Assembly (NCBI RefSeq): GCF_030145185.1
Contig: NZ_JAQYWB010000037.1
Coordinates: forward strand, 1-58,322
Length of the DNA: 58,322 nucleotides
Source of the DNA: Desulfoluna sp.
GTDB lineage: Bacteria; Desulfobacterota; Desulfobacteria; Desulfobacterales; Desulfolunaceae
Direction: 5' to 3'
Below the pieces are notes generated by a model, which saw only the letters and a program-made list of their open reading frames with translations, was not told where the DNA came from and did no database searches. This document shows positions 34,072 to 57,932 of this stretch, one piece after another. The translations under genes and the position numbers were made by a program. Within the stretch, counting starts at the first letter, position 1; each line of letters opens with the position of its first letter.

Positions 34072-35262
34072 TTATATGTCGTTTGCAGAAAGCCGACGCG
34101 CGACAGAGGCAAGAAGGGAATGGATGCGCCCCTGGGTGGCATACATATGGGGAGTTGCGGTGAGAATATCCACGTATTTCCCGGAGCCTGCGAGCGTCAT
34201 AAAGTGAGACATGCCCTCACCGCAGGGGGGGATAAAGAAACAGGCCTCGGGGTCGAAACCGCCACAGGCATATCTTTCCATGGGCATCTTTCCGAGATTG
34301 GATATCACAGCGGACGCGGAGTACAGATCCGTCGCTTGACTCTCCGCCGCAGACTGCCGGTAGACTCTCTTCATAAGTGACAAAGGGATAAAGGAAAGGA
34401 CAGGATACCACGAAGGCAGGGATTCATTTTGCCCCGCCAGGAGTAATGAGAGTTTGCCCTGGACGGATGTCACGGTGTCTTGATCTGACACCTCAAAATG
34501 AATCATGCTGGACAGATTATTGGTAGAACGAAGCCCCGGGATTCTTTTCCTCATATCCACCGGGATCAGAAAAGAGACTCGCCCCGGTTGATACTTCCAG
34601 GCTTCTTCGGCAAGTAAAATCGCCAGCTTTGAAACAAGATGCTTGAATTTTCCTTCCAGCCGGATGCGTTGCCAGGCGACGGCCTGGCTGTCTCCCTGGG
34701 ATTTACCCGTTGGAATGATGCAATCACTGGGCCTTATTTTGGTCGCACTGTTTTGGTTTTTATCGCGGGTCATGGAGGAAATGTCCATGTCTGTCACCCG
34801 TGAACGCGAGCCCACCGGTTTTTTTCCGTTCAGTGCAGCGAAAACATCTTCAACCCAAAGCTGAGTTCCACGGCCATCCATCATCCCATGGTTGGTTCTA
34901 AAAACGATCCGCGTTGTGTCCCCGGGCAAAAGCACAACCTGAGAGGTCGGCCCCTTCACCGGATGAAGAGGCTCCGTTAAAAACGGCGCGTTCAATGAAT
35001 GGAACCCATCCCACGCAGAATCCCGGATGACCTTCACCGATGCCGAGCCCCCTGAGGCCACCCATTTGGCAAAGCAATACCGCCCCTTCAAGCGCAGCCG
35101 ACTCCCCGGATGTGCGCGGCACGCAGCATCCACGGCCTTTTGTAACTCAACCTCATCAATGGTCCCCACCCCTTCCACCACCAACTGATTGGCGAAAGGC
35201 CTGGCCGCCCAATCGGCAACCAGGAGCGTTTTTTCGGCAGGAGATAATTTTCGACTGAACAT
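34072..35262 (-). CDS. Condensation-domain/PapA-like acyltransferase
   Basis: 396 residues; the ATG at 35262 has GGAG about seven bases upstream. The active-site motif HxxxDG appears as His125 to Asp129 in 'RTNHGMMDGRG', and the DFGW-equivalent region is 'VISNLGKMPMERYACGGF'. Such stand-alone enzymes esterify alcohols or amines with fatty or polyketide acyl groups carried on CoA or ACP, as in PapA proteins and wax-ester synthases. As the last gene of the lipid cluster it could attach the synthase product to a head group. Donor and acceptor are not readable. Confidence 0.82.
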   Translation of the reverse strand: MFSRKLSPAEKTLLVADWAARPFANQLVVEGVGTIDEVELQKAVDAACRAHPGSRLRLKGRYCFAKWVASGGSASVKVIRDSAWDGFHSLNAPFLTEPLHPVKGPTSQVVLLPGDTTRIVFRTNHGMMDGRGTQLWVEDVFAALNGKKPVGSRSRVTDMDISSMTRDKNQNSATKIRPSDCIIPTGKSQGDSQAVAWQRIRLEGKFKHLVSKLAILLAEEAWKYQPGRVSFLIPVDMRKRIPGLRSTNNLSSMIHFEVSDQDTVTSVQGKLSLLLAGQNESLPSWYPVLSFIPLSLMKRVYRQSAAESQATDLYSASAVISNLGKMPMERYACGGFDPEACFFIPPCGEGMSHFMTLAGSGKYVDILTATPHMYATQGRIHSLLASVARRLSANDI

Positions 35263-35347
35263 CGCAACAGACTCCATAAATAAAAATAAAGAACAGGAAT
35301 AACAAACAAATCCGGCGGCATGGTGACTTAACCCGGGGTCCCGGAGA

Positions 35348-36598
35348 TCACCCCCTGCTCGCCAGAGGGACTCGTTTAACAGATTGAATCGGCGTGGCTT
35401 TTCCATCTCGCACTGTCACCGCATCATGGATCGGGGCATCATCCCAGTCCCGCAACAGGGCTTCGGCAGAGGCGACCAGAAAGGCATCGTTGGGGACACT
35501 GACCCCGGAGTTGATCCGGACGGCGTTGCCCACTTTAACCCGGTGGCCGATCGCGGCCCCTAAAAAATGGGTTTCACTGTCTGCCAACCCCTCCCCGGTG
35601 TTTGCACAAACAGGGATGGATTTTCCAAAAGAAAGGTCCAGGATGGTGGCTCCGAAGGCCATGAAGCTGTCACGCCCGAAGAGACACATCTGATACCCCC
35701 CACCGGAGGAAACCATGGCACCGGGGTAGGCCACCGAAAGGTTTAGCATGGCACGTGTCGGCAGGTAGGCCTTGCGACCCACAACGCTCATCTGAACAAT
35801 AGAGTAGGGATCAATCACCGCCTCTACGCCAATATAACATCCCCGGACTACCGAAAAGGCTCCGATCTTTGCGCCTTTTTTGACGGTTGAAAACTCAACC
35901 ACCGCCGTCGGGTGAATGTCCGCCCCTTTTTCAATTTCGTTAAGCTGCTGCATCACCTTCCACTTGTTAATGGAGCGGGATTTCATCAGGAGCCGTGTGA
36001 TTTTAAGGGCCTTTTTAAACATCGAAGAGGACGTGAATTCACGTTTCCCTTTCTCCATCGCATAGCTCATCGACAAATGGTTCACACGCAGGATGTGCGT
36101 CCAGTGATCCATCTGAAACACCATCTCTGTCCCCAGCCAGAACGGTTGTTTCTCGGAGATCCCAAGGGCCGGGTGTTTCACGGCGGTCACCACGTCGTCC
36201 GGGTCCACCGCCCGCAGGTCAAGTTCCGTCACCACGACAGGGCACGTTTCAAACTCCGGGCGGGCACCTGGCAACATCCACGCCATCTCATACATCCCAG
36301 GCCCGTCCAACTCCTGTAACGCACCTGTCGACGACAACCAGTGGCTGTTTTTCACGCACAGGCGGCCATAATCACCTGCGATTATTTTTTCCACCAGCTC
36401 TGAAGTGAACCATGTGCGATCCGAAAAAAGAAAAAAAGGCTCATCGTCCGGGACCGCATCCACCCAGGTTACACCGGCGTCATTCAGCGCATTGCGTTGA
36501 ACCTCCGATAAGGGCTGATCCATAATCCGGGTTTTTCCAATCCCATCGCCAAAGGGGTTGATCGTCTTGTTCGTTTCAACACAAAAGGCTTTGATCAT
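35348..36598 (-). CDS. Left-handed beta-helix (hexapeptide) protein with N-terminal nucleotidyltransferase-like part
   Basis: 416 residues from the ATG at 36598 with AGGAG six bases upstream. The N-terminal half begins 'KTINPFGDGIGKTRIMDQPLSEVQRNAL' and includes 'DEPFFLFSDRTWFTSELV', recalling sugar-1-phosphate nucleotidyltransferases, though a clean GxGxR signature is missing. The C-terminal half (about 235-385) has hexapeptide repeats ('ADIHPTAVVEFSTVKKGAKIGAFSVV'), the left-handed beta-helix of acyl- and nucleotidyltransferases. Set beside a glycosyltransferase, it may supply or modify an activated sugar. Function is tentative. Confidence 0.7.
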   Translation of the reverse strand: MIKAFCVETNKTINPFGDGIGKTRIMDQPLSEVQRNALNDAGVTWVDAVPDDEPFFLFSDRTWFTSELVEKIIAGDYGRLCVKNSHWLSSTGALQELDGPGMYEMAWMLPGARPEFETCPVVVTELDLRAVDPDDVVTAVKHPALGISEKQPFWLGTEMVFQMDHWTHILRVNHLSMSYAMEKGKREFTSSSMFKKALKITRLLMKSRSINKWKVMQQLNEIEKGADIHPTAVVEFSTVKKGAKIGAFSVVRGCYIGVEAVIDPYSIVQMSVVGRKAYLPTRAMLNLSVAYPGAMVSSGGGYQMCLFGRDSFMAFGATILDLSFGKSIPVCANTGEGLADSETHFLGAAIGHRVKVGNAVRINSGVSVPNDAFLVASAEALLRDWDDAPIHDAVTVRDGKATPIQSVKRVPLASRG

Positions 36599-36642
36599 GC
36601 CCATCTCCTGCGTTCCGTTAAATAATGCCTCTGGCACGCCCT

Positions 36643-37830
36643 TCAGCTTTTCAATTCCTCAAGGCATCGTGCTGCTTTTTCCGCTCCCCCTGCCTTCACA
36701 AAGGACGCCTTGATTCTGAGCGCATTCTCACGGTAGGAGGGGTCATGAATCAGCGTCATCACCGCATCGTGCATGTCACTGGGTTTAAAACGCCGATACT
36801 TGAGTCGGAGCCCGGCACCGGCGGCAACCACCTGGCTCGCTACTTTTGACTGGTCATCTTTGATGGGGGTGACCACAAGGGGCAATCCGTTCATCAGAGA
36901 TTCACAGACCGTATTATGCCCGGCATGGCTGACCACACAGTCCACATGGGGCAAGACGTCCAGTTGAGGGATGCGCTTTCGGATGATAAAATTATCCGGT
37001 ATCCTGTCAAAAAAGTCACCCGGTGCAACCGCCACCACGGTCAGGTCCCGGTGTTCAAACGCCTCAACAATTTTACTGAAAAAGGCTTTTCCATGGTCTT
37101 GATTGACGGTACCCAGGGAGATCAAGACCTTGGGTGTGGTCGTTTTTTTCAGTCTCGCAAAGGGAAAAGGCGTCGTATCGATACGATGGGTAATCGAAGG
37201 ACCGACGAAGCGATAATGATCCGGGAATCTGCAGTGTTCCCCCACAAACAAAGGCGATGAAAAGATAACGGCAAGACGCGCCGATGTATTCACCTTTTCG
37301 TTGCAAGCCACTCCGACGCTCTGCTGGAATTCAATCATCCGGTCGTGTTCCCACTGATTCACCCGATGAAAGCCTTCTAAGGGTTCCTGAACGCCTGCGG
37401 AGGTGGTGCAGAAGGTGGCGTAAGGGATTTTTTTCTGCCATGCGACCACGGCACCGGCAAAGGCCTGTTGATCGTTAATGATCACATCCGGCTTCACCCG
37501 TTCGACGATGGACGCCACCCCTTGCATGGTTCCTCTGGCCATGGGAATAAAGACATCTTCATATAAAAACTTCAAACTTTGCAGACCCGAGACAGACGGA
37601 GATTTTTTAACTATCTTTCGATAATCCTCCGGGCCCATGTTGTCTTCTACGGCCATAAAGGTTCCCCCCTTGGGCAACCGGTCCCCTAAAGGGCCGTCAC
37701 CGCCCACAAGCAGAGCCTCGTGGCCGGCCCAAAGAACCTCATGCCCGCAGCTAAGCAGCTGAGCGCCGACGGAGAGCGTTGGATTGATATGCCCCGCCAG
37801 GGGTGGAACCACAAAGAGAAAGCGCCCCAT
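36643..37830 (-). CDS. GT1-family (MGT-type) glycosyltransferase
   Basis: 395 residues, ATG at 37830 after AAGGG. N-terminal 'FLFVVPPLAGHINPTLSVGAQLLSCGHEV' and the C-terminal nucleotide-sugar motif 'VVSHAGHNTVCESLMNGLPLVV' followed by 'DDQSKVASQVVAAGAGLRL' are typical of the UGT/macrolide glycosyltransferase group (GT1). These add sugars to lipids and natural products. In this cluster the acceptor is most likely the lipid made by the two synthases. The gene ends 44 bp before the hexapeptide gene. Confidence 0.92.
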   Translation of the reverse strand: MGRFLFVVPPLAGHINPTLSVGAQLLSCGHEVLWAGHEALLVGGDGPLGDRLPKGGTFMAVEDNMGPEDYRKIVKKSPSVSGLQSLKFLYEDVFIPMARGTMQGVASIVERVKPDVIINDQQAFAGAVVAWQKKIPYATFCTTSAGVQEPLEGFHRVNQWEHDRMIEFQQSVGVACNEKVNTSARLAVIFSSPLFVGEHCRFPDHYRFVGPSITHRIDTTPFPFARLKKTTTPKVLISLGTVNQDHGKAFFSKIVEAFEHRDLTVVAVAPGDFFDRIPDNFIIRKRIPQLDVLPHVDCVVSHAGHNTVCESLMNGLPLVVTPIKDDQSKVASQVVAAGAGLRLKYRRFKPSDMHDAVMTLIHDPSYRENALRIKASFVKAGGAEKAARCLEELKS

Positions 37831-37860
37831 AAATTTACCCTTCCAGAGTCCGCACACACA

Positions 37861-38634
37861 TTATTGACATGTTAACCACCTCGTCACCTGTTCACAGAGC
37901 TCTTCGGTTGCCTCCCATATCACCGAATGGGTACACCCTTTGATCACTCTGAAGTCGCATTGGGGAAGGAGGGACTTGAGGATCTCGCCTTTGTCCCGGA
38001 TATCTGAGTGTTCGCCGTAAATAGCAAGTACCGGGCAGGCAATCTCTGCCAGGGAGTGCTCGGAAATGGGCCTGAAATTCCGGATATCATGGACCAGTGA
38101 GGTGCCATAGACCAGCCCATGGGCATTGTCTGCCAGCCGGTTACGCTTTCGGGAGCTGTGACGCCCGAGCCACGTTTTAAACGACGCGGCAATGGCCCGG
38201 TCACGGGCATCTCCCTCAAGCGAAAGGGTCTCTGTCATGTCCGCGGCAAATCCGCTGTCCCCGATGTGGGCATCAATGAGAACAATCCCCGCTGTTCGTT
38301 CCGGATAGGCCAGGGCAAACGCCAGGTTGAGAATCCCGCCAAAACTGTTTCCGACCAGGTAAACAGGATCCACCAGGCCCAACCCGTCGAGGAGAGCCGC
38401 CAAATCCGCCACAAAATCAGGGAGGGTGTAACCGGATTCAGGTCGCTGTGTTTTGCCATGCCCCCTCAAGTCATACATCAGGGCACGAGCGAAACCTGAA
38501 ACCCGGGTACCCAGTGTAAAATACCAGCTCGACAGGTTGTCCATGATCAACCCGTGATGAAAGACAACGGTCTTCTCTCCGGACCCAAGATACTGATAAT
38601 GAATATCAATCGCATTGGCTCTAATCACTGCCAC
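37861..38634 (-). CDS. Alpha/beta hydrolase 1
   Basis: 257 residues. The nucleophile elbow is 'VGNSFGG' (Ser97), the oxyanion region 'VVFHHGLIMD'; the acid is in 'LAIYGEHSD' and the base His in 'VIKGCTHSVIWE'. It overlaps the next upstream hydrolase by 14 bp. In such clusters hydrolases often act as thioesterases or acyl-releasing enzymes. It shares the 'LMYDLRGHGKTQR' signature with hydrolase 2, so the pair likely arose by duplication. Confidence 0.9.
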   Translation of the reverse strand: MAVIRANAIDIHYQYLGSGEKTVVFHHGLIMDNLSSWYFTLGTRVSGFARALMYDLRGHGKTQRPESGYTLPDFVADLAALLDGLGLVDPVYLVGNSFGGILNLAFALAYPERTAGIVLIDAHIGDSGFAADMTETLSLEGDARDRAIAASFKTWLGRHSSRKRNRLADNAHGLVYGTSLVHDIRNFRPISEHSLAEIACPVLAIYGEHSDIRDKGEILKSLLPQCDFRVIKGCTHSVIWEATEELCEQVTRWLTCQ

Positions 38635-39388
38635 AAAAAAACTCCAAAAATTGATGGTTTACCTCACCGGAACACTCCACAGGCAGATAATGCCCCCCAG
38701 GCAAGACGACAAGGGTTGAATCCGGGATGTTTCCCGCGAGGCGCTGACCGGCATCCCTGCAGGAGGAGTGGTCCCCATACAGAAGCAGGGCGGGGACGGA
38801 CAGGGAGGCCAACAGGGCATCGTCTATATCCGGTTCTTTTTGGAGGTCGGAAAAAAGGGTGCTTTCACACGCCAGATATTCGAGTGAGGCCCTTAATTTT
38901 CGCGCCTGCCGTTTGCCGCTGAGAATCAACCCCTGCAACCAGGACGGCAAGGCCTCAATCATCTCCTCCGGGCTTCGGTTAAGGAACACCCCCATCTCTG
39001 CCAGATCCGACGGCGGGAGCGGAGCGTCCACGATCCCCAGTTTGTTTATTTTTTCAGGATGGCTGAGTGCATAATTCAAAGCAACCAGGCCCCCGTAACT
39101 GTGGCCCGCAAGGGAGAGGGTCTTTAACTGAAAATGGTGAATCACCGCGTCCAGATCACCCACCATAGAGGGGATATCAAAACCGGTACGGACCTTTTCA
39201 CTTTTGCCATGTCCCCGCATATCATACAGAATCACCCGATGGGTTTTCGCCAGCAAAGGGGCTGCGGTAAAATACCACATGGCCAGGCTGCCCACCAAAA
39301 GCCCATGCAGCAAGACAATGGTCTTCTCGCAATCCGGGTTCAGTTGCTGCACATGAAGCCGGGTGCCGTTTGCGTTCAGGTAAGGCAT
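38621..39388 (-). CDS. Alpha/beta hydrolase 2
   Basis: 255 residues with 'AGHSYGG' (Ser97), 'VLLHGLLVGSLAMWYF', Asp in 'LLLYGDHSS' and His in 'LPGGHYLPVE'. It overlaps the ACP gene by 13 bp at its start and hydrolase 1 by 14 bp at its end, so the three are translated together. One of the two hydrolases is a candidate thioesterase that frees the finished chain from the ACP; which one cannot be decided. Confidence 0.9.
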   Translation of the reverse strand: MPYLNANGTRLHVQQLNPDCEKTIVLLHGLLVGSLAMWYFTAAPLLAKTHRVILYDMRGHGKSEKVRTGFDIPSMVGDLDAVIHHFQLKTLSLAGHSYGGLVALNYALSHPEKINKLGIVDAPLPPSDLAEMGVFLNRSPEEMIEALPSWLQGLILSGKRQARKLRASLEYLACESTLFSDLQKEPDIDDALLASLSVPALLLYGDHSSCRDAGQRLAGNIPDSTLVVLPGGHYLPVECSGEVNHQFLEFFCGSD

Positions 39389-39973: not shown

Positions 39974-39976
39974 AAG

Positions 39977-42900
39977 TCAGAAGAACTTTTTGAACTTGAT
40001 ATGATCGGTCCCTTCGGGGACCACCGATGCCACCGAATAATTAGGCTCGGATGCCGTCATGAGCCAGTAGGTCTCACCGGAAGGCCCCACCGCTTCACAC
40101 CGCCCGATGGTCTCCTGCCCAATCAAAGAGATCTCGGCTGGATAGACAGGTGAAATCCCCTCGGCAAACAATCGATTCCGAACCGCGTCCTTTAAAACAA
40201 TCAGCGTGTTCAACCACGCCCTCTTCCGTTTGGGTTCAATGCGGTCATACAGCGCTTTTTCTGCCTGCGTACAATATCGTCGGCTGATGTACTGGGTGGC
40301 GTTGGCCGTTTTATAAACATCCCGGTAAATCAAAAAATCGTTCTCATCCACAGAGGAGAGAAGGTTTGATCCGGCGTCTCGCATCACCTCAAAGAGCGCC
40401 TCGTCCGTATCAAACCGCCTGTCATCCCACCCTGTAACCCCCGCCCAGAGAGTGCCACCCACCGTCAACTCCATATCTGCCGATGCGGAGCCCGGTTTCA
40501 TGGGATACGCTTTCACCAGGCAGTCCACCTCCTCACCGTCCCCTGGGTTATCCGAATAAAATTCGATTTTCCCTATCCGGATGGGCATGGCGAGCCTGTC
40601 TGTCTGAGTCATTTCCATGACCCAATAGCCAAAGAGCTGCCCCGCATTATCAAGCAACGACCCTTGCCCTTCTGCCGCGGTGATGACCCCGCGGATGCCA
40701 TTGTCCCCTAAGGTTCCAGTCTCCTTCACGCCCTGATAGGCCGGGCCGTGAAACATCCACCCCTCGCGGTAAAGCCTGTCACAGGAGACCGGCGCTTTTT
40801 GGGGATTCCGCAGAAGAAAGGGGGCCGGTTCAGGTGGGGTCGGGTAGGTATCGGCGAGTCGAACCCTGCCGGAGAAATAGCCTTTAATGACCATCTGAAC
40901 ATATTCTACGCCGTCATAGTCGGCTTCAAGTTCTGCCGTAAAGGGCTGGCTCAGATCGATCCAGTTAAACGCCTGTATCTTTTCAATGGCCGTAACTTTT
41001 TTACCTGGAACCATTTTTTTAGCGTATTCACACAGAATATCGATGGACATGGTCATGGGCACCACCGGAAATTTTTCAGATAGCTGGGTGCAGCCCTCAC
41101 TTTGTGGGAACAATGAATGATCGATCAGCCAGGGGTATCCCTCAAGGGAAAGATCCAGTGCGCAGGTTCTCTTCCTTGCCCCCGGATCCTGGTCAACAGG
41201 GGCTGCGGGAAGACACCTTTTCTGGCTTTCCGGCAGGGACTGCCACGTCTCAAGGACTTCTTTATGCATGTGGACAATACCGTTCAGGGTCTCCTCATAC
41301 GCCGCCAGCACAGGATGATTCTCAGAATTTGTCAGCACCGCTGAGGACGCAGGCCCAACGTGTGAGAAGTCGAGGCGGGTCTCAAGCCTGACCAGTGGAA
41401 CCCCCAGCGTCAGGGGCATCTCCATGGCCGTCCCCCCCGAAGGCACGGATAAAGGCTCTGCCAGCATCCCAGCCCCCGGAAGATCCGGTTCCAGCCCTTC
41501 AATAAAACAGGCGGCAAGGGCCCTTCTCAATTGGCGCATCCCGCTCATTTTCGGGGTATTTGTGTTGATGGCGGCAAACTTTTTGCCTTTTAAAATGTCC
41601 TGAACAAATCCGGTGAGGCTTCCGGTCCCGGCCTGAATAAAGACCCGAACGCCCTCCTCATATAATGTTAAAATAAGCTCTCGGAAACGGACCGGCTTGA
41701 CCAGGTGATCGAGCATCAGAGCCCTTAAGGCCTCCCGCTCTTCTGGATACGGCCCGCAGGTTGTCGCAGACCACAGGGGTGTCTTCATCCTTCCGATATC
41801 CAGCGCATCGAATTTTGCTCGATGAACACCCAGTGAATCAGCGTACAAAGGAGAATGGAACCCGGATCTAAAGGGAAGCTTCAGACACAAGATCCCCTCT
41901 TTTTTCATGGCATTAAGGGCCGCATTAACGCTTGCATCAATCCCGCACAGGATCACCTGATGAGAGCAGTTGTCCGTGCTCACGCAGATATCCTCAAGGT
42001 CATCAAAGAAGGATTCCGCGGTCCGGATATCGCATCCTGCCGCAGCAAAGGCCACATCCGGCACCTCTAAGGACCCGGCCTCCAGATTCTGAATAAATTC
42101 ATCGAGGCCCTTCGAGTCGATGACACCGGTGGCGATCATCCCGGACCACTCTCCGATGCTGTGCCCGGCGACCACATCGGGGGTTATTCCCAGATCACCC
42201 AGCAGGGAGTGGACAAATTGATTGACGCGGATAATCCCGACGCCGGTCTCTTCAAGGTTCTCCGGGTGCAGGCAACCCGGCAGGGTTTTATCAAAAAACG
42301 CAGCCACATCGTCGAGCTTCGGTTCAAACGCACTGTCCACCCCAGGAAACAGAAAGGCGGTTTTCCCGCCCCCTGTCACCAACCCTTCAGACGTATAATA
42401 AATATCCCCACGCCCTCGCCAGGCCCCACCCCGAAGGATTATTTTCCTGGCCTTGTCCCGCTTTTTTTCATCTGGATTAAACACCACAAGCCGGAACGCG
42501 CCTCCGTCAAGGCGTGTCTCTCCCTTTTCAAGGGCATCCAGCACCTCCTCCCGGGACCCAACGCTGATCAAGAGGAGGGGCTCCGCCGCCTCTTCCAGGG
42601 GGGCCGGCACGGGGGCGGTTGAAACAGAAGCCTCGGCCTCCCTGTCATGCTCGGACATCACAAGATGCACATTGACCCCGCCAAAACCGAAGGCATTGAC
42701 ACCAGCGATTCGCTGGAGCCCTTCGGAATGCCAGGGCTCCGCCTGATGAATCAACCGGAACCCGGTCGGGTCGAGGGCCTCATCCGGCTGATCACAGTTC
42801 AGGGAGGGGAAGCGAACCTTATGATAAAGGGACAAGGCGGTCTTAATAAACCCGGCGACCCCGGCTGCCGGCATACAATGACCAATCATGGACTTGACAG

Positions 42901-44026
42901 ACCCCAAGCCGGGCTTCGTTCCCATGCCTGTCTGCCCGAAAAATCCGGCGAGTGTTTGCAGTTCCGACAGATCTCCGGCACGGGTGCCGGTGCCATGGGC
43001 TTCAAGGGTGCCGATATGCTCGGGGTTCAGCCCGGACATCTTCCAGGCTCGTTCAAGGGCCAGGGTCTGGCCTCCGACATCCGGAGACATCAGGCTGGAC
43101 GCTTTGCCATCGCTTGAGACCCCGATGCCTTTGATGACAGCATAAATTTTATCACCGTCTGCCACGGCATCCTCGTAACGTTTCAAGACCACCACACCAA
43201 CGCCTTCTCCGATCAAGAGCCCGTCGGCATCTTTGTCAAAGGGCCGAATCACACCGGTCTTCGAGAGAACACCCAGCTGCGTGAACACACTCCAGAACGA
43301 AACGTCGTGGCAGAGATGAACCCCGCCAGCCAGCATCAGGTCGCACTGCCGGTGCTGAAGCGCTTTGGCCGCCTGGTCAATGGCCATAAGAGAGCTTGCG
43401 CACGCGGCATCAATGGTATAGGCCGGCCCACACAGATTCAGTCGGTTCGCCACACGCGACGCCGTCAGATTGGGGACCAGCCCAATCACGGTATCCGGCC
43501 CATAATGGCCCAGCTTGCTCTGAAACTCGGCCTTGATCTCACCGATGGCCTTTTTTGACATTTCGGGAAACAGGGATTCCAGGCAGGAGACCAGCTGCTG
43601 GGCAGTACGAACGTGTTGTTCCAGCCTGACCATGCCTGGACCGATATAATTGCCCCGCCCCAGGATAATACCCGTCTGACGGCCTGGCAGGTCGGACACG
43701 TCATAGCCGGCATCCCTGAGCGCCTCACAGCTCACCTTGAGGGTAAGCAACTGGTCCGGTTCAGCCCCTTCGGCCGCAATGGGCATGATGCCATGCGAGA
43801 TGGGGTCAAAGGTTGCGTACCCATCGATAAACCCGCCCCGGCGGCAATAAAACCGATCACTGGACGTGGATTCGGGATCGTAATACAAGGGGTCCCATCG
43901 ATGTTGAGGAACCTCTGTAATCGCATCGTACCCGGTGGTGAGGTTGTCATGGTAAGCCGCCAGATCAGGAGCACCTGGCAAAATACAGGCCATCCCTGTG
44001 ACCGCAATGTTGCAGGGATCACTCAT
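39977..44026 (-). CDS. Pfa-like lipid/polyketide synthase: KS-AT-dehydratase
   Basis: 1349 residues. A ketosynthase (about 5-465) has the active-site Cys near 207 ('DAACASS'), 'EAHGTGT' and 'GHCMPAAG'. An acyltransferase-like domain (about 550-850) has 'AGHSIGEW'. A C-terminal double-hotdog PKS dehydratase (about 950-1250) has the catalytic His in 'WLIDHSLF' near 970 and 'DNAGQ' near 1125. No ACP is built in, so it must work with the ACP of its partner or the free ACP. The start overlaps the partner synthase by 8 bp. The layout is like PUFA synthases and related secondary-lipid synthases. A reduced or polyunsaturated long chain is the likely product. Confidence 0.93.
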   Translation of the reverse strand: MSDPCNIAVTGMACILPGAPDLAAYHDNLTTGYDAITEVPQHRWDPLYYDPESTSSDRFYCRRGGFIDGYATFDPISHGIMPIAAEGAEPDQLLTLKVSCEALRDAGYDVSDLPGRQTGIILGRGNYIGPGMVRLEQHVRTAQQLVSCLESLFPEMSKKAIGEIKAEFQSKLGHYGPDTVIGLVPNLTASRVANRLNLCGPAYTIDAACASSLMAIDQAAKALQHRQCDLMLAGGVHLCHDVSFWSVFTQLGVLSKTGVIRPFDKDADGLLIGEGVGVVVLKRYEDAVADGDKIYAVIKGIGVSSDGKASSLMSPDVGGQTLALERAWKMSGLNPEHIGTLEAHGTGTRAGDLSELQTLAGFFGQTGMGTKPGLGSVKSMIGHCMPAAGVAGFIKTALSLYHKVRFPSLNCDQPDEALDPTGFRLIHQAEPWHSEGLQRIAGVNAFGFGGVNVHLVMSEHDREAEASVSTAPVPAPLEEAAEPLLLISVGSREEVLDALEKGETRLDGGAFRLVVFNPDEKKRDKARKIILRGGAWRGRGDIYYTSEGLVTGGGKTAFLFPGVDSAFEPKLDDVAAFFDKTLPGCLHPENLEETGVGIIRVNQFVHSLLGDLGITPDVVAGHSIGEWSGMIATGVIDSKGLDEFIQNLEAGSLEVPDVAFAAAGCDIRTAESFFDDLEDICVSTDNCSHQVILCGIDASVNAALNAMKKEGILCLKLPFRSGFHSPLYADSLGVHRAKFDALDIGRMKTPLWSATTCGPYPEEREALRALMLDHLVKPVRFRELILTLYEEGVRVFIQAGTGSLTGFVQDILKGKKFAAINTNTPKMSGMRQLRRALAACFIEGLEPDLPGAGMLAEPLSVPSGGTAMEMPLTLGVPLVRLETRLDFSHVGPASSAVLTNSENHPVLAAYEETLNGIVHMHKEVLETWQSLPESQKRCLPAAPVDQDPGARKRTCALDLSLEGYPWLIDHSLFPQSEGCTQLSEKFPVVPMTMSIDILCEYAKKMVPGKKVTAIEKIQAFNWIDLSQPFTAELEADYDGVEYVQMVIKGYFSGRVRLADTYPTPPEPAPFLLRNPQKAPVSCDRLYREGWMFHGPAYQGVKETGTLGDNGIRGVITAAEGQGSLLDNAGQLFGYWVMEMTQTDRLAMPIRIGKIEFYSDNPGDGEEVDCLVKAYPMKPGSASADMELTVGGTLWAGVTGWDDRRFDTDEALFEVMRDAGSNLLSSVDENDFLIYRDVYKTANATQYISRRYCTQAEKALYDRIEPKRKRAWLNTLIVLKDAVRNRLFAEGISPVYPAEISLIGQETIGRCEAVGPSGETYWLMTASEPNYSVASVVPEGTDHIKFKKFF

Positions 44027-50747: not shown

Positions 50748-51626
50748 CTTAAACTCTCCGAGGCACCGCACGATTCAAGGCCGATGCCTGGTTGTTGAGG
50801 TCGACACAAGGCTCAAAGGTTATTAAAAAGGGTTGCATTTGCGTCACGATAAACAATCCTTCGATGGAAGACCTCTCAACCCAAGAGGACGCCCCAAAGT
50901 ACTAAAAAGATAAAACGAAAAAACCGTCGTTTCAGCCGGAAGCACGAGGTCGGCTGTGATGCAAAAATTGTCCCTGATTTTTTCTCCGGCACGCGCCATG
51001 GCTCATAAGAATCTGTTTTAATGACAAACCTGGCAAAGCCTTAACACCCTTGCCGACAGCCAAGGGTTCCGTACTGAAATAATCAGCTTTTCGCAGCGAA
51101 ACCGTCTCTGTTTCCTGGAAGCATAAAATGACTTATTCAATAATCTATAACTCATTTTATGGCCTTATAAAAAACAGTATTACAAGCTAAAAAAGTTAGC
51201 TCAGAACGCTATAATGAGATTTCTAAAGGATCTTTAATTCCTCTTTCGTACCCCATGCGATATGGCGATATGCACCCGGGAAAAAGCCACTTCCAGGTCA
51301 AAACCAGAGATACCTCATCTATTTAGCAAACGACAGACCCGATACAGCAGGGACTGAAGAAAAGATGCATCTATCTGAATAATCGATGATTACACGATAG
51401 ATCAGCCATATTTACAGAGAGCCTAAAACGCCGTCCGCAACATAAACATTGTTTAAAGCGATTCATATATGTATAGTTCCTTTTCGATGATGTAAAGCAC
51501 TATTTTTTACTGTTAATTTAAAACCGCGAAATGCCCAGTTAAAAATTCTCAAATAATGCCTCAAAAAGATATATTATATTTACTCAAAGAATCATCACAT
51601 AAACAATAAGACCACAGAGACAGCCC
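50748..51626. other. AT-rich divergent intergenic region, 879 bp
   Basis: No gene is seen. It separates the minus-strand synthase operon from the plus-strand export operon and must contain both promoters. Base composition is much more AT-rich than the genes around it, strongest from 51130 to 51620 (for example TATATTATATTTAC near 51570). I find no sigma-54 motif or clear operator. Length and composition suit binding by nucleoid proteins or several regulators. Confidence 0.6.
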
Positions 51627-52343
51627 ATGCGCCAAATTGAAATCACACAGGTCACAAAAAATTATCGTCTTGGAAAAACGACGATTCAGGCTCTTAAAGG
51701 GGTCAATTTCACCGTTGAGGAGGGAGAATTTCTTTCCGTTGTCGGAGCCTCGGGCAGCGGAAAAACCACGCTTCTGAATATCATCGGCTGTATCGATGCG
51801 GCCTCTGAAGGGAGCGTTAAAATAGACGGAATTGAAATTAAGAGATTAAATGACAACGAACTTACGGATTTAAGGCTGCGAAAAATAGGGTTTATTTTTC
51901 AGACATTTAATCTCATTCCAGTCTTGAATGTCTTTGAAAACATCGAGTTCCCCCTGCTCCTGATGAACCATTTGCCCAAAAAAGCCGTCGTCTCACGGGT
52001 CAACGCTCTCATTGAACAGGTCGGTTTAACCGACTTTGTCCGACACAAACCGGCTGAATTGTCGGGAGGCCAGCGTCAACGCGTGGCCATCGCCCGATCC
52101 CTTGTCACAAACCCTGCGATTGTTCTTGCGGATGAGCCCACGGCCAACCTGGATACAGAAACCGGAAACTCTATATTGGCACTCATGAAGGCCATCAATA
52201 TGAGAGAAAAAAGCACCTTTATCTTCTCCACCCACGATCCTGAGGTACTGAAATATGCGGATCGAATCGTCAACATCAGAGACGGCAGGGTGGTCAATCC
52301 AGAGCCCCCCGTCGCCCTCTGCCTCGATGGCAGGGGCTACTGA
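51627..52343 (+). CDS. LolD/MacB-family ABC transporter ATPase
   Basis: 238 residues with Walker A 'GASGSGKTT', signature 'LSGGQRQRVAIARSL', Walker B 'IVLADEPTANLDT' and switch His in 'FIFSTHDPEV'. The 'SGSGKTTLLNIIGCID' and 'FIFQTFNLIPVLNVFEN' stretches are those of the LolD/MacB/FtsE group. It powers extraction of a lipid or lipoprotein from the inner membrane. The next gene starts one base after its stop. Confidence 0.95.
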   Translation: MRQIEITQVTKNYRLGKTTIQALKGVNFTVEEGEFLSVVGASGSGKTTLLNIIGCIDAASEGSVKIDGIEIKRLNDNELTDLRLRKIGFIFQTFNLIPVLNVFENIEFPLLLMNHLPKKAVVSRVNALIEQVGLTDFVRHKPAELSGGQRQRVAIARSLVTNPAIVLADEPTANLDTETGNSILALMKAINMREKSTFIFSTHDPEVLKYADRIVNIRDGRVVNPEPPVALCLDGRGY

Positions 52344-52344
52344 G

Positions 52345-53883
52345 ATGGGGCTGCTCATAAAAATTGCGTTCAGGAATCTCTTACGCCACAAAGGTCGCAG
52401 CCTGGTCATCGGGGCCATTCTTTTTGCCGGTGCCCTGGTCATGTCCTTGGGCAACGGCATTATTTCAGGCATGGAAAAGGGGCTTGAAGCCAACATCATC
52501 CATCAATGGACCGGGCATCTCATCATTATGTCCTCACGGCAGACAAACGATGATGCTTTATTCAGCCCCAAACCCATGAAGGTCATTCGCCATTATCCCC
52601 AGGTTGAGACCGCCCTGAGAAACGACCGCAACGTCCGTGCCTTTTTACCGGCAACCAAGGGGCTTGTCATGGTGCTGAATATCGGTGCCCGGAAAAGAGC
52701 GGCCGAGCATCCGGTGCTCAGCATGCTCCTGGGAGTTGACTTTCAACACTACCGAAAAATGTTCAACAACAGTGTGAGCCTTCTTGAAGGGAGCGGATTA
52801 GGCCCGGACGAGAAAGGGCTTTTGGTCAACGTCTATGAACGAAAGAAAATTTATGAGTCAGAAAACACCTGGCTTCTCCCTCTCGGCACGGGTCTTAATC
52901 GAAGCAAGATGCCTCCCGACGCTTTATCTGAGATAGACACCCTTGAGACCGCATCGAGCTTGGTCTTAATGGGAATCGGAGATGACAACAGCGCCCTTGA
53001 CGTATTTGCTCACGTAAAGGGTATTTATGAGTTCAAGGCTTTAAATCTCCTTTTCAAAGAGATCAACCTGATTGACCTGGAGTCCTTCAGGGAGTGTTTT
53101 GACTATGTAACCCGAGCCGAAAGCCAGACCGCTGTGTCCAAAGAAAACAGTGAGATTCTGGATGCCACAGAAGAATCCCTGATGCACTATTTTTCGAAGA
53201 CGGCACTCATTGAAGGGCCTGGTCTTGAGACCGATCTGGGGACGGATGCTTTAAAAAAAGAGGTGGATACCGGCGGGATGATCACCGCCACAGCCCACGA
53301 TGCCTACAACCTTATCTTTGTAAAATTGCATCACGGTCAAATACTTGAAGCAACCCTTCACAACCTGAACAACCGCTTCCAGTCAAACGGAACGGATGCA
53401 AGGGCGGTCTCCTGGAGAAAGGCAATCGGGTATATCTCTGATATATCCCTTCTTTTCCGCATCGCACTGAATATTTTTGTCTTCTTTATCTTTTTTGTGG
53501 CTGTGATCATCATCATCAACACCCTGACCCTGAATACCCTGGAGCGAACACCGGAAATAGGCACCATGAGAGCCATCGGAGCCCCAAAACGATTTATCAC
53601 GAGAATGCTGATTCTCGAGACCTTGTTCTTGGCATGTCTCTTCGGAAGCCTCGGCCTCATAAGTGGCTCTCTCCTCACCCTGTTTCTATCGGGTCTTGAC
53701 CTGGCGGCCTCCAACGAAATGATGAGCTTAGCCTTCGGCGGAGACACATTCTGCCCGGTCATGGATCTAAACGGCATGACACACGTTTTTATTCAACTCA
53801 CCGTTGTCACCCTGATGGCTGTTCTTTATCCGGTGCATCTTGCAAAAAAAGTATCACCCCTTGACGCCGTGGCACGGGATTAG
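52345..53883 (+). CDS. FtsX/LolC-E-like ABC permease 1
   Basis: 512 residues from the ATG at 52345. N-terminal 'LLIKIAFRNLLRHKGRSLVIGAILFAGALVMS' is the typical LolC/E first segment. A large periplasmic domain (about 50-370) follows, then three membrane helices with the FtsX-domain sequence 'LERTPEIGTMRAIGAPKRFITRMLILETLFLACLFG'. It pairs with permease 2 and the ATPase to form a LolCDE-like complex. Overall the complex moves amphiphiles toward a periplasmic carrier. Confidence 0.92.
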   Translation: MGLLIKIAFRNLLRHKGRSLVIGAILFAGALVMSLGNGIISGMEKGLEANIIHQWTGHLIIMSSRQTNDDALFSPKPMKVIRHYPQVETALRNDRNVRAFLPATKGLVMVLNIGARKRAAEHPVLSMLLGVDFQHYRKMFNNSVSLLEGSGLGPDEKGLLVNVYERKKIYESENTWLLPLGTGLNRSKMPPDALSEIDTLETASSLVLMGIGDDNSALDVFAHVKGIYEFKALNLLFKEINLIDLESFRECFDYVTRAESQTAVSKENSEILDATEESLMHYFSKTALIEGPGLETDLGTDALKKEVDTGGMITATAHDAYNLIFVKLHHGQILEATLHNLNNRFQSNGTDARAVSWRKAIGYISDISLLFRIALNIFVFFIFFVAVIIIINTLTLNTLERTPEIGTMRAIGAPKRFITRMLILETLFLACLFGSLGLISGSLLTLFLSGLDLAASNEMMSLAFGGDTFCPVMDLNGMTHVFIQLTVVTLMAVLYPVHLAKKVSPLDAVARD

Positions 53884-53899
53884 CCCGGATAGGCCTATC

Positions 53900-55654
53900 A
53901 TGAAACTTATCTTTCGTATCGCATTCAGAAACCTTATCCGGCAGAAGCGCCGGAACCTCCTGCTGGGCACCGGCATCGCCTTTGGTATCATGATTCTTTT
54001 TATCTCTCAGTCCTACACGAAAGGGCTGTCAGATATTCTCATCAACTCGTTTATTTCAAGTGTTTTTGGGCATATCCAGGTGAATGCGACGGAAAAGTCC
54101 GACCGCTCCATTGCCATCATACGCGATAAAGACGCGGTGCTTGAAACCATCCACCAAACCCTTGACGATGTGAATTATTGTTGGGAATCCGTCTCCACAT
54201 TGACCCGAACGATCGGAAACGGCAGCGGTGCCCTGATGCTGGTGGTCGGAATTGAAAAACACAATGGGGATTTTCTCCGTTCCTTGAACGTGGCGGAAGG
54301 TGACATCCGTGATTTCACCGAAGAGAGAACAGACACACCCATCATTCTATATGCACCCAAGGCGGAAGAGTTGAACGTGAAAACCGGGGAGACGGTCAAT
54401 ATGAAACTGACCACGATATACGGCCAGGTTCAAAGTACTCGGGCGACGGTTGCCGCGATCGTAAAACCGGAAAATATTTTCATGACCATGGCCGGATTTA
54501 TCCCCCTGGACACCCTCAAATCTCTCCTCGGATATCGCCCCCACGAAACATCACGCATCAATATTGTCCTGAATCATATCCGCAAACCCGAAGAGACAGT
54601 GGCTCAAGCGGATCGCCTTCACCGGGCATTTAAACCGAAACCTGTTTTTTTCAACCTGACCCTGACCGGCCGCCACGGTCAAACCCAGGCCCTGGCCGGA
54701 GGATTGCAGACCCAGCCTGAGATCACTCCCTTATTTTTAGAAGAGTTCAATCTCCCAACCGACATGGCCGATACGTTTTCGGCAGATGCCATGTCCGTCA
54801 TCATCGGCAAAGGGATTGCTGACACACTCCAGGAAGAGGTCAACGGCACCCTGACCCTTAGCTACCATACAAAGTTTGACGGCCCACACGCCCCAGACGC
54901 TGTCTTTACGATTCGCGGCGTAATCGATGAGCCCTCCGGAGCCTATGCCGATGTCGCGTTCTTTAATGTGTCCGGTTTTTATCCCATCTATTCCGAAGAT
55001 CTCCCACGCGTCATCTCCGGCAATGATCAGGTCAACGACCTGACGACCCGAGATCCTCTGCGGATGGCTCTTGCTTATGACAAAATGCTCCTCAAACGCC
55101 CTGCAGACAGCAGGGAATGGAAAAAGCTGCTGAGGCAGATCAACAAACACCGCGGCCCGGGCACTCTCATGCACATCACGAGCATGAATGAAACGGCTGA
55201 GGATGTTCTAAAAATAGAATCCGCCCTCAACCTGATCTGCATCATCACCGTCATCATCCTTTTTATGATCATCCTGACCGGAACGGTGAATGCCCTTCGT
55301 ATGACCCTGCGGGAACGCACCCGGGAGATCGGTACCATTCGCAGTATTGGCATGCAAAAAAAACATGTGGTCCGTCTCTTTGTGATCGAATCAGGACTCC
55401 TGGCCCTCTTTGCCTCCGCAGCCGGAACAGCCGGTGCCCTTCTTCTCATGTTCCTGCTCACAAAGATCTCATTTCAGGTGGACAACCTCTTCAGCCTGTT
55501 GATCGACAACGGACACCTCCACTTTTTACCCGATCTGACGACAGGGTTGGTGAATATCATTCTAACCGTTGCCGTAACCGTGTTTACTATCTGGTTTCCT
55601 GTAAAAAAAGCCGTCGGTACGTCCATCACTGGAGCGTTGAGTTGCTACGAATAA
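53900..55654 (+). CDS. FtsX/LolC-E-like ABC permease 2
   Basis: 584 residues, start ATG 53900, 16 bp after permease 1. Same plan: 'LIFRIAFRNLIRQKRRNLLLGTGIAFGIMILFIS' at the N-terminus, a long periplasmic domain, and the C-terminal FtsX domain 'LRERTREIGTIRSIGMQKKHVVRLFVIESGLLALF'. It is longer than permease 1, as expected for the two different halves of a heterodimer. Substrate likely the lipid made by the divergent cluster, by context. Confidence 0.92.
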   Translation: MKLIFRIAFRNLIRQKRRNLLLGTGIAFGIMILFISQSYTKGLSDILINSFISSVFGHIQVNATEKSDRSIAIIRDKDAVLETIHQTLDDVNYCWESVSTLTRTIGNGSGALMLVVGIEKHNGDFLRSLNVAEGDIRDFTEERTDTPIILYAPKAEELNVKTGETVNMKLTTIYGQVQSTRATVAAIVKPENIFMTMAGFIPLDTLKSLLGYRPHETSRINIVLNHIRKPEETVAQADRLHRAFKPKPVFFNLTLTGRHGQTQALAGGLQTQPEITPLFLEEFNLPTDMADTFSADAMSVIIGKGIADTLQEEVNGTLTLSYHTKFDGPHAPDAVFTIRGVIDEPSGAYADVAFFNVSGFYPIYSEDLPRVISGNDQVNDLTTRDPLRMALAYDKMLLKRPADSREWKKLLRQINKHRGPGTLMHITSMNETAEDVLKIESALNLICIITVIILFMIILTGTVNALRMTLRERTREIGTIRSIGMQKKHVVRLFVIESGLLALFASAAGTAGALLLMFLLTKISFQVDNLFSLLIDNGHLHFLPDLTTGLVNIILTVAVTVFTIWFPVKKAVGTSITGALSCYE

Positions 55655-55717
55655 ATCCAATAACCTCGTTTTAACACCTTGCTGAGCACCATGAGCAAAA
55701 GATCTCAGGAGCAGAGA

Positions 55718-56488
55718 ATGACCCATCTTCGACTTATTTTTATAGCCCTCTTCATCCTTTCACTGGCACCAGAGAGGTCCCTGGCCGGCCAGGTGCAAGA
55801 GATCCTCGAGTGCCTCGAGGAAAGCCTGACCGTCGACCATGATTTTTCGGCCAAAATGGTCATGGTTGAAGAAAAGGCAGGGCAAGGCAAAAAAAAACAC
55901 GAGCTCGTTTACTACCGACGAGACTCTGATGATTCCTTTCTTCTGGTGGCCACCTACCCGTCCACCAAAAAAGGCAACGGCTACCTCCGGGTGGGGGATA
56001 ATTTCTGGGTCTATCGCCGGAACACCCGCTCCTTTCAGCATGTAAACCGAGATGAATCCGTCTCCGGTACCAACATGAAGCTTGAGACCTTTGAGAAGAA
56101 AAAGCTGACGGAGCTTTACCGGTCCGACAAAACCAAAAATGGGCGAGATCTCATTTATAAGGACAGGCTGGGAGACATCCCTGTGTATAAGTTTATTTTG
56201 TATGCAAAAGTAAAAGACGTTGCCTATCCAAAGCAAATCATGTGGGTCAGGCGGGATAATTTTTTGCCTTTAAAGATTGAATATTTTTCGGTCTCTGGAA
56301 CCCATATGCTCACGAGTCTGTACCTTAAATACACTAAAATCAAAGGGCGTTACTTCTGGATCAAGCTGTTGAATATCGATGAGTTTGAAAAAGGGAACAA
56401 AACCGTGGCCGATATTTCGGGGATTTCCTTAGCCCCCCTGGATGACGTCATTTTTACAAAGCCATATTTAGAGAATCTCAGCAATTGA
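55718..56488 (+). CDS. LolA-like outer-membrane lipoprotein/lipid carrier
   Basis: 256 residues; ATG at 55718 with AGGAG six bases upstream. A signal peptide (about 1-23, ending 'ERSLAGQ') precedes a LolA-type fold of the COG2834 group ('KKHELVYYRRDSDDSFLLVATYP', 'VGDNFWVYRRNTRSF', 'PKQIMWVRRDNFLPLKIEYF'). It would carry the substrate of the ABC complex across the periplasm. The second LolA-like protein of the window is at 31541-32167. Confidence 0.88.
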   Translation: MTHLRLIFIALFILSLAPERSLAGQVQEILECLEESLTVDHDFSAKMVMVEEKAGQGKKKHELVYYRRDSDDSFLLVATYPSTKKGNGYLRVGDNFWVYRRNTRSFQHVNRDESVSGTNMKLETFEKKKLTELYRSDKTKNGRDLIYKDRLGDIPVYKFILYAKVKDVAYPKQIMWVRRDNFLPLKIEYFSVSGTHMLTSLYLKYTKIKGRYFWIKLLNIDEFEKGNKTVADISGISLAPLDDVIFTKPYLENLSN

Positions 56489-56519
56489 TGGCCTTGCTAA
56501 AAACCCAAGGGGTGTGGAC

Positions 56520-57932
56520 ATGAAATTCAGAGTTTATCTGCTTATCGTTCTCATGTTGCATGGGTTTGCCAACCCATGTTTGAGCCGTGACGATCTTGAC
56601 ATGGACAATCTTTTTTCAAATGACGGGTTCATTATTCAAATAGATGACCTCGAAAACGAGTCCGTCATGTCGATAATCAATGGCAGATCCGTGAACTTTT
56701 CCGGTTCGTTATACAACAAGTCGAGATACACCACCAAACGAAGCGATTACACGTTGAAGACGATCTTCGTTGATTATGTTAGCCAGTTACCCGAAAGCTT
56801 TCGTGAACAGAATCAGGCAGATATTGATAAATTTAAAGAGACCTATCACATAGGAGACGATGACTGGTTTACCTCAACCATGACCGCGAATCTTCTTTTT
56901 GATATCCGGCTGGTGGACAACGTCCGGGGCTTCATGAATCTGGACGCCATCTACTATCCCTACGGATTTTCCGAATACCACCTGGCAAGGGACGAAAACC
57001 AGAAAATCCTGGAAATAGAAGAGGAAAAAGACACAGACCTGATCCTCAAAGAGATTTTCATTGATGCCAACATCAATAAAAAAGTATTTCTTCGGGGAGG
57101 AAAACAGGTCCTGCAATGGGGCCGGGGGTTCTTTTTCAACCCCACCGATCTGATCAATATCGAAAAAAAACGGTTTCTCGATATGGACGCCAACCGGGAA
57201 GGAACCTACGGATTAAAGGCGCATGTCCCCTTTGGAATAAAATATAATGTTTATGGCTTCATAGACCTGGGAACCGAGGAAGACACCGATTATTTTGCCT
57301 ATGCGGGAAAATTCGAATTTCTTCTGGATAAAACAGAAATATCCCTCTCCTCCTGGAAAAAAAAGGGGGTGGACCCGATCTTCGGGTTCGATATTTCCAC
57401 CCGATGGGAAAATATAGACATCTTAGGCGAGCTCAGCCTCACGTCGAAAGAGACCGTCCTCCGGCCCAATAATGATTTCACCGTAACGGAGACCGAAGAC
57501 AGATGGGTCCCGCGGTACAGCCTCGCGCTGATGACGTCCTTTGATTTCATGGATATCAACGACAGAATCACCCTTGGATCGGAACTGTACTACAACCATG
57601 CGGGCTACTCTGAAAATATTTTTGACGACCCGGCCAAAGTGCTGACCCTCTTTGCCAACGATCTGTACACCATGCACAACCACTCCGTTTATTATGCAAT
57701 GTTCTTCGCCGAATATAAGGAATTTTTTATCAATGACCTTACTTTTTGCTTAAGCGGTCTGGGAAATTACACGGACAAATCCGGGATTGGCATGGCACAA
57801 CTCAAATACACCCCCCTGTATGATTTTACCCTGGAGTGTTCCCTCTCCTCAACCTTTGGTGACGACGGTGCGGAGTTTACCTTCACCGGCGATGAGGTGA
57901 GCATCGAAGTTGTCGCGAAAATTCTTTTCTAA
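56520..57932 (+). CDS. Outer-membrane beta-barrel-like protein
   Basis: 470 residues, start ATG 56520. Signal peptide about 1-23. The body is rich in alternating aromatic/polar strands and short turns ('RGFMNLDAIYYPYGFSEYHLA', 'KVFLRGGKQVLQWGRGFFFNPTDLI') and ends in a strand with terminal Phe ('EVVAKILF'), a usual barrel-assembly signal. It resembles DUF1302-like barrels, but I cannot name the family with certainty. As last gene of the export operon it may be the outer-membrane receiver. Its TAA stop lies inside the CTAA repeat of MITE copy B. Confidence 0.8.
   Translation: MKFRVYLLIVLMLHGFANPCLSRDDLDMDNLFSNDGFIIQIDDLENESVMSIINGRSVNFSGSLYNKSRYTTKRSDYTLKTIFVDYVSQLPESFREQNQADIDKFKETYHIGDDDWFTSTMTANLLFDIRLVDNVRGFMNLDAIYYPYGFSEYHLARDENQKILEIEEEKDTDLILKEIFIDANINKKVFLRGGKQVLQWGRGFFFNPTDLINIEKKRFLDMDANREGTYGLKAHVPFGIKYNVYGFIDLGTEEDTDYFAYAGKFEFLLDKTEISLSSWKKKGVDPIFGFDISTRWENIDILGELSLTSKETVLRPNNDFTVTETEDRWVPRYSLALMTSFDFMDINDRITLGSELYYNHAGYSENIFDDPAKVLTLFANDLYTMHNHSVYYAMFFAEYKEFFINDLTFCLSGLGNYTDKSGIGMAQLKYTPLYDFTLECSLSSTFGDDGAEFTFTGDEVSIEVVAKILF

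Follow-up and report, generated by a model that had tools for sequence, protein, structure and literature searches.

A five-gene Lol-type export cassette beside a PUFA-like synthase arm in Desulfoluna: two separable modules and a possible lipid route to the outer membrane

The window, a 58,322-bp stretch that is the whole of contig C94 in a draft Desulfoluna genome (G000), harbors two gene arms that point away from each other. The genome encompasses 5.79 Mb in 152 contigs, with an estimated completeness of 96.9% and contamination of 3.9%. On the minus strand (34072-50771), eight genes and one doubtful open reading frame (ORF) make up a biosynthetic arm of synthases related to those of polyunsaturated fatty acids (PUFA), together with release and decorating enzymes. 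On the plus strand (51627-57932), five genes form a Lol-type export cassette. The two arms are best regarded as separable modules placed side by side, and in this particular genome the exporter may well carry the lipid that is made next door. Two questions that the initial annotation had run together are kept apart, namely what the synthases produce and what the cassette carries. The genes named by the initial annotation all proved to be real and to lie where it had placed them, their families being backed by Pfam and NCBIfam, by motifs and by structural models.

The cassette, which is the newer part of the locus, is a real conserved unit of exactly five genes. Co-occurrence was followed in 146 relatives, in samples of 395 Desulfobacterota and 198 Elusimicrobiota genomes, and in a scan of genome contigs that used permease A only. 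Searching 145 other genomes with permease B returned near-full-length relatives only in two further Desulfobacterales, G020 and G084. The contig scan gave 14 loci, of which 12 are true: G020, G084 and ten from Elusimicrobiota-type metagenome-assembled genomes (MAGs). The two others, from Pseudobutyrivibrio (L078, L079), covered only ~78 query residues and were not counted. The Elusimicrobiota sample yielded 11 cassettes, eight of them new; the Desulfobacterota sample yielded the window's own cassette only, G020 and G084 evidently not having been drawn, and a scan of viral contigs with permease A found no relative. The total is thus 21 cassettes including that of the window, the 20 further ones being divided between Desulfobacterales (2) and Elusimicrobiota (18). 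All five genes keep one order in the window, in G020 (L061), in G084 (L062) and at 15 of the 18 Elusimicrobiota loci; at the remaining three (L069, L071, L088) the contig ends at the LolA match or within 375 bp of it, before the barrel gene. For any ORF outside the cassette, relatives occur in at most 4 of the 19 other loci compared. The cassette proteins found elsewhere are 32-70% identical to those of the window, and a recent transfer from the sampled Elusimicrobiota is unsupported, the window cassette sharing 38-40% identity with every one of the 17 others compared. A 205-aa ORF on contig C70 of G020 (L063:8122-8739) joins a LolD-like start piece to the last 161 residues of permease B, and resembles a second cassette with an internal deletion.

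Independent support for a megasynthase product as cargo comes from the surroundings of the intact cassette in G020. There, all on one strand, a nonribosomal peptide synthetase (NRPS) is followed by a polyketide synthase (PKS), a zinc dehydrogenase, the cassette and, 18 bp past the barrel gene, a type II thioesterase. The NRPS, cut by the contig start, comprises condensation, adenylation and peptidyl carrier protein domains (C-A-PCP). The PKS has the domain order ketosynthase, acyltransferase, ketoreductase, acyl carrier protein and thioesterase (KS-AT-KR-ACP-TE) and, at 28% identity, is no orthologue of Syn1, the larger synthase of the window. Because the G084 contig starts ~200 bp before lolD, G020 provides the only other Desulfobacterales copy whose upstream DNA can be read, and it alone counts as an independent case, since the adjacency in the window was the reason for choosing it. 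A rough estimate, based on 3 multidomain KS loci in some 6,000 genes, puts the probability that the adjacency in G020 arose by chance at ~0.1%. The position of the two readable Desulfobacterales copies by different megasynthases fits a cassette recruited for megasynthase products, and because such recruitment is seen here and separately in G020, the neighboring lipid is the likeliest cargo in the window. More tentatively, as a possibility rather than an expectation, the cassette may represent a class of exporter not yet described, dedicated to carrying lipidic natural products from the inner to the outer membrane. Such an exporter would correspond to the RND-LolA route of the aryl polyenes but be powered by an ABC ATPase, and would have been plugged at least twice in Desulfobacterales into unrelated megasynthase loci, one for a PUFA-like glycolipid and the other, in G020, of the NRPS-PKS type.

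The individual components of the cassette are listed in Table 1. In PDB comparisons, YtrF, LolF and LolE are matched by the FtsX part of the permease A family profile, and entry 3buu by the LolA-like family profile (E 2.9e-15). For the barrel protein no family rises above its cut-off, DUF1302 giving a weak match (15.5 bits, cut-off 23.2), and its profile has no match among PDB sequences up to E 1. Its AlphaFold model is modest (pLDDT 67.3, with no residue at or above 90) and matches the OprD/Occ and AlgE barrels with a VIA-align Z of ~23 and a root-mean-square deviation of 3-4 Å. The permeases score 48.1 and 63.7 bits with the LolC/E model TIGR02212, under its cut-off of 362.45, and, judged by sequence, they are no LolC/E equivalogs. 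With TIGR02211 (cut-off 307.75), the cassette LolD reaches 233.3 bits and the LolD beside the host's lolC/E 266.4 bits, likewise under the cut-off; the cassette protein also matches the DevA model (211.7 bits, cut-off 295.8). The canonical Lol system of the host is found on contig C107, where lolC/E (398.7 bits, cut-off 362.45), lolD, bamA and lpxD stand in a row, and the cassette on C94 is therefore an addition. The evidence supports the view, already taken in the initial annotation, that the export arm forms a coherent Lol-type unit, separate from the Lol system of the host. By homology, the LolD-like ATPase and the two FtsX permeases would pull an amphipathic molecule out of the inner membrane, the LolA-like carrier would shield it through the periplasm, and the OprD/AlgE-like barrel would take it at the outer membrane or pass it through.

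Table 1. Features of the two arms and of the region between them, with the basis of each assignment.
Feature	Coordinates	Strand	Basis
Condensation/PapA-fold acyltransferase	34072..35262	-	Motif, alignment, AlphaFold and Foldseek
Left-handed beta-helix (hexapeptide, LbH) protein with a further N-terminal domain	35348..36637	-	Sub-cut-off LbH matches
GT1 glycosyltransferase, MGT/YjiC-like	36643..37857	-	UDPGT PF00201, 75.5 bits (cut-off 19.5)
Alpha/beta hydrolase 2	37861..38634	-	PF00561, 75.3 bits, above cut-off; GNSFG
Alpha/beta hydrolase 1	38621..39388	-	PF00561, 88.9 bits, above cut-off; GHSYG; putative chain release or transfer
Free acyl carrier protein, 96 aa	39376..39666	-	PF00550, 25.5 bits (cut-off 20.8); motif ESI at residue 46
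Syn2, 1349 aa, KS-AT-DH, degraded C-terminal PPTase-like region	39977..44026	-	Pfam, relatives
Syn1, 2250 aa, NMO/PfaD-like ER-KS-AT-ACP-KR	44019..50771	-	Pfam, NCBIfam, motifs
Divergent intergenic region	50772..51626	.	855 bp, GC 0.40, separates the arms
LolD-like ABC ATPase	51627..52343	+	PF00005, 118.4 bits; TIGR02211, 233.3 bits (cut-off 307.75)
FtsX-type permease A	52345..53883	+	PF02687, 58.5 bits, above cut-off
FtsX-type permease B with MacB periplasmic core	53900..55654	+	PF02687 and PF12704, above cut-off
LolA-like periplasmic carrier	55679..56488	+	LolA_like PF17131, 104.8 bits (cut-off 30)
Outer-membrane beta-barrel, OprD/AlgE-like fold	56520..57932	+	AlphaFold, Foldseek, VIA-align; kept in cassette relatives

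A number of observations weigh against an exporter devoted to this lipid. The exact pair of arms is seen in one genome only, that of the window. The synthase-arm stretches read in six other Desulfobacterota hold no cassette, ten such stretches (L103-L112) giving no tblastn match (E <=1e-5) to the five cassette proteins, to the PapA-like protein or to the LbH protein. In the flanks read, which on the side of lolD extend over 0.8-9.3 kb, the 18 Elusimicrobiota loci give no tblastn match (E <=1e-3) to any protein of the synthase arm. Among the 18 Elusimicrobiota cassette genomes, 11 contain a KS within an ORF of 1000 aa or more, and in the other seven, which are draft MAGs, only KS frames shorter than 460 aa were found; draft genomes can miss genes, and it is unlikely that all seven misses are artefacts. 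Within the locus itself, the arms are divergent and form no single operon, promoter-like sites in the intergenic region are at chance level (3 in 50700-51700, against a mean of 1.8 in shuffles), and the contig ends 390 bp past the barrel gene. The initial annotation had treated both arms as one conserved system, a view at odds with an export operon that occurs widely without synthases. Taken strictly, such operons are what the 18 Elusimicrobiota loci present in the flanks read, seven of them in genomes with no multidomain KS found, and the idea of a single conserved system was given up. As the exporter exists without the synthases, its cargo in general is probably not this lipid, and the cassette probably serves other cargo too. 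A special link between the cassette and large KS genes within Elusimicrobiota is also unsupported, many cassette-free genomes among the matches listed carrying a large KS as well.

The Elusimicrobiota cassettes, with no synthase relatives in the flanks read, would also suit a second, specialised Lol system that stands by the synthases through chance and that serves either some of the lipoproteins or a general lipid of the envelope. The cassette LolD is nearest to LolD_lipo_ex, and the resemblance of the FtsX part of permease A to LolF and LolE points in the same direction. However, the host already possesses a canonical lolC/E-lolD set, the scores of both permeases lie far below the lolCE cut-off, and the G020 cassette sits inside an NRPS-PKS operon. 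We consider a specialised Lol system somewhat unlikely, and the export of the neighboring lipid is retained as the preferred reading for this genome.

Turning to the synthase arm, the top NCBIfam model of Syn1 is PfaA (TIGR02813), which at 908.7 bits remains under its cut-off of 1010.1 and which gives 449.1 bits on Syn2. A PfaD-like enoyl reductase (ER) is present in the N-terminal part of Syn1 (PF03060, 75.2 bits, cut-off 28). The dehydratase (DH) of Syn2 matches PF14765 under the cut-off (E 7.6e-4, 19.5 bits, cut-off 23.7), and is recognised clearly, as PS-DH, in two scanned Syn2 relatives, which also end in an ACPS/phosphopantetheinyl transferase (PPTase) domain; PF01648 (PPTase) is above cut-off in the relatives on L105 and L106. 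The C-terminus of the window's Syn2 keeps a weak PPTase trace, with a pairwise match to the PPTase region of a relative at E 6e-5. The KS motifs DAACASS, EAHGTGT and KSxIGH and the AT motif GHSxG are intact in both synthases; Syn1 carries DSIK in its ACP and YSSAN in its KR, and Syn2 carries DHS and DNAGQ in its DH. GxSxG is intact in both hydrolases, and all of these we take to be catalytic motifs. Tandem ACPs are not recognised by Pfam, which finds one PP-binding stretch in Syn1 and none in Syn2, nor is a pair of KS and chain-length factor (CLF), there being one KS in each synthase, both with the active-site Cys; in either case divergent domains could be missed. Since KR, DH and ER are all there, a reduced chain is possible. 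A second large synthase of the same genome, on contig C44 (L091:2-9310), is encoded in one open frame of 3103 aa and comprises NMO, three KS stretches, one AT and five ACP stretches; because of its tandem ACPs it is more PUFA-like than Syn1.

The decorating enzymes are assigned with varying clarity. The GT1 scores 187.7 bits with TIGR01426 (cut-off 260), and its PDB relatives are YjiC and the oleandomycin glycosyltransferases. The hexapeptide protein gives 28.5 bits with LbH_EIF2B (cut-off 54) and a match to GlmU in the PDB at E 0.002; its relatives are confined to 1 of 242 genomes, namely its own, and a role as acyltransferase is a guess. The ORF of the PapA-like protein opens at 35406, which would make it overlap the LbH gene, and homology begins near 35262. 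Pfam gives no condensation match for it, and a relative in G299 matches PF00668 under the cut-off (E 1.6e-5). Its motif is HGMMDG, preceded by N where the HHxxxDG-type motif has its first His, and the active motif is kept in all four relatives aligned. The AlphaFold model, from an alignment of five sequences, has a pLDDT of 75.5 and a pTM of 0.83, the five models spanning 49.7-75.5. Foldseek places the dehydratase AzeD (8s6l) first, at E 1.2e-18, and also matches the condensation domains 6ad3 (E 4.1e-15) and 8f7f, and PapA5 (1q9j, E 8.5e-14). By motif and by modeled fold, the protein fits the PapA/condensation superfamily. Relatives are found in 4 of 247 Desulfobacterota genomes, its own included. 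G299 has one copy near a GT1 gene. The three paralogues of G175 (contig C6, ~312-370 kb; L121-L123) share their region with genes for a GT1, an acyl-CoA ligase and an acyl-CoA dehydrogenase, and a type I restriction-modification set lies between them.

Taken together, these families support a predicted product of the kind that the initial annotation had suggested, a long-chain, reduced lipid that carries a sugar, an ester group or both. Syn1 and Syn2, with KS, AT, KR, DH and ER activities and with both the Syn1 ACP and the free ACP, would build a long, largely reduced acyl or polyketide chain, which a hydrolase would free or transfer. The GT1 would then attach a sugar, and the PapA-like enzyme, perhaps together with the hexapeptide protein, would esterify the molecule to give an acylated glycolipid.

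The core of this arm is, from comparison of sequences, a recurring lipid cluster of Desulfobacterota. The dehydratase half of Syn2 is found in 7 of the 395 Desulfobacterota genomes, its own included. In G429 and G171, Syn1 and Syn2 are accompanied by a type I phosphodiesterase (PF01663), an alpha/beta hydrolase, one or two SDR enzymes and a GT1. G473 and G390 show Syn1, cut by the stretch, Syn2 and a hydrolase, with no GT1 within the stretch read; the stretch from G146 is a 6-kb contig, and G420 encodes one fused synthase of 3451 aa. Relatives of hydrolase 1 adjoin Syn1/Syn2 homologues in four other genomes, and GT1 genes do so in two. As the core recurs in stretches without the PapA-like protein, the LbH protein or the cassette, none of these three belongs to it invariably. 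In 139 of 146 genomes of the order, Syn2 has single-KS matches (E <=1e-30); because their coverage ends at about residue 600 at most, what they show is that KS-type synthases are frequent in the order. In the G429 and G171 clusters (L104, L106, L109, L111), the phosphodiesterase follows the synthases and a sulfatase-family gene lies further downstream; neither family is among the Pfam matches of the window's arm.

The single recognised ACP of Syn1, in place of the tandem ACPs of PUFA synthases, and the lack of a recognised chain-length-factor domain would also be compatible with a diffusible natural product of polyketide type instead of a lipid of the membrane, as would a GT1 of the macrolide/MGT type and an exporter that travels with an NRPS-PKS in G020. 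Such a product is nonetheless unlikely, since the top NCBIfam model is PfaA, a PfaD-like ER is fused to Syn1, and a LolA-type carrier suits a lipidic cargo. It is less probable still that the same lipid is made and the exporter provides efflux of toxic or excess product instead of inserting a structural glycolipid into the outer membrane. The Ame system does support monoterpene tolerance (PMC6394551), and the barrel matches channel-type folds (OprD/AlgE) and has a weak DUF1302 match, but the number of decorating enzymes points to an end product that is built up.

Systems that make, decorate and export a lipid are already known, and what sets the window apart is the ABC/FtsX pair with LolA-like carrier and OprD/AlgE-type barrel by PUFA-like synthases. 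The aryl polyene clusters, as described for E. coli CFT073, produce a polyketide-type lipid with ACPs, a thioesterase, acyl- and glycosyltransferases and an RND pump, and the LolA-like ApeL and LolB-like ApeN are proposed to mediate a Lol-homologous export to the outer membrane (PMC8253772). The likeness lies in a decorated polyketide-type lipid with a dedicated Lol-homologous route. The aryl polyene enzymes, however, are dissociated and single-domain and the pump is the RND protein ApeM, whereas the window has multidomain synthases and ABC/FtsX components; the genes listed for the aryl polyenes include no OprD/AlgE-type barrel.

The heterocyst glycolipid islands (hgl/hgd) are described as containing PUFA-synthase-related enzymes, the glycosyltransferase HglT and hgd transporter genes (PMC11804610), and DevBCA is also needed for glycolipid export (PMC8064123). 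In this description, what they share with the window is an island that unites PUFA-related synthases and a glycosyltransferase with genes for transporters. The heterocyst ABC exporter includes a membrane-fusion protein and export reportedly uses a TolC-type duct; we know of no LolA-like carrier in that system. Among the Pfam matches of the window, by contrast, neither arm contains an HlyD or OEP family and the biosynthetic arm contains no thioester-reductase family, and the barrel model is of the OprD/AlgE type.

Pfa-type secondary lipid synthases were classified by Shulse and Allen into types A-T, several of which occur in Deltaproteobacteria, with type R occurring in Elusimicrobium (PMC3098273). 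The window resembles them in its PfaA-like KS-AT-ACP-KR and PfaD-like ER, and differs in the single recognised ACP of Syn1, in the lack of a recognised chain-length factor and in the KS-AT-DH arrangement of Syn2 with its degraded PPTase. The window synthases are not matched to any of the named types.

With regard to transport, the Ame system employs an HAE3 RND pump, a LolA-superfamily protein and a DUF1302 outer-membrane protein for apolar compounds (PMC6394551). As described, it shares an inner-membrane pump, a LolA-superfamily periplasmic protein, an outer-membrane protein and a hydrophobic cargo, but the pump is RND and not ABC, and there are two periplasmic proteins. The Borrelia BBJ23-29 cluster includes an ATP-binding protein, an FtsX/MacB-type permease, a LolA-like carrier and an outer-membrane barrel (PMC13078400); it differs in its one permease, its Omp85-type barrel and its TPR proteins, and no lipid-synthesis genes appear in the cluster described. 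LolCDE-LolA itself shares the LolD-like ATPase, the FtsX permease pair and the LolA-like carrier, and differs from the cassette, which has permeases far under the lolCE cut-off and its own barrel and which coexists with canonical Lol. The main text of a 2026 survey of hybrid PKS-NRPS-PUFA lipids contains neither "Desulfo" nor "LolA" (PMC13291983). The initial annotation knew of no described system with the full set, which is too strong in view of the aryl polyene and heterocyst precedents. Searches of the open-licence literature gave no description of an ABC, LolA and barrel exporter beside a synthase, nor of the cassette. The pairing of synthase arm and exporter is plausible but rare.

Some further features of the window can be noted. 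Comparison with relatives gives likely true starts at 35262 for the PapA-like protein, 52345 for permease A and 53900 for permease B. The doubtful ORF at 39638-39973 is without a family match and is probably not a gene, and no tRNA was found in the window. The overall GC of the two arms differs (0.547 and 0.487), but their GC at third codon positions is close (0.609 and 0.590, both below the 0.667 of 17 genes in the left part of the window), so that a separate origin of the arms was not adopted and no conclusion on origin is drawn from composition. A 249-bp dispersed repeat, resembling a miniature inverted-repeat transposable element, terminates the contig just past the cassette (57932-58180 and 58182-58321). 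Its inverted ends of 17 nt are 94% complementary, as read over the junction of the two tandem copies, and at least 42 matches, the query included, occur in the genome at 81-100% identity (40 of 407 first-look candidates scored). Just outside the locus, overlapping minus-strand genes at 31541-32173 and 32167-32730 encode a DUF1571-like protein and a polyketide-cyclase/SRPBCC-like protein, with Pfam matches under cut-off and none in NCBIfam. The DUF1571-like protein we take to be LolA-like, and the two genes could be an additional lipid-handling pair of the same locus.

The route by which lipids and polyketides other than lipopolysaccharide reach the outer membrane is poorly known beyond a few models. 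If the proposed function of the cassette is true, it would provide a testable ABC-driven route for such lipids, found beside two different megasynthases, and the combination of a LolA-like carrier and a barrel next to a PKS would offer a genome-mining handle for unseen glycolipids of anaerobes.

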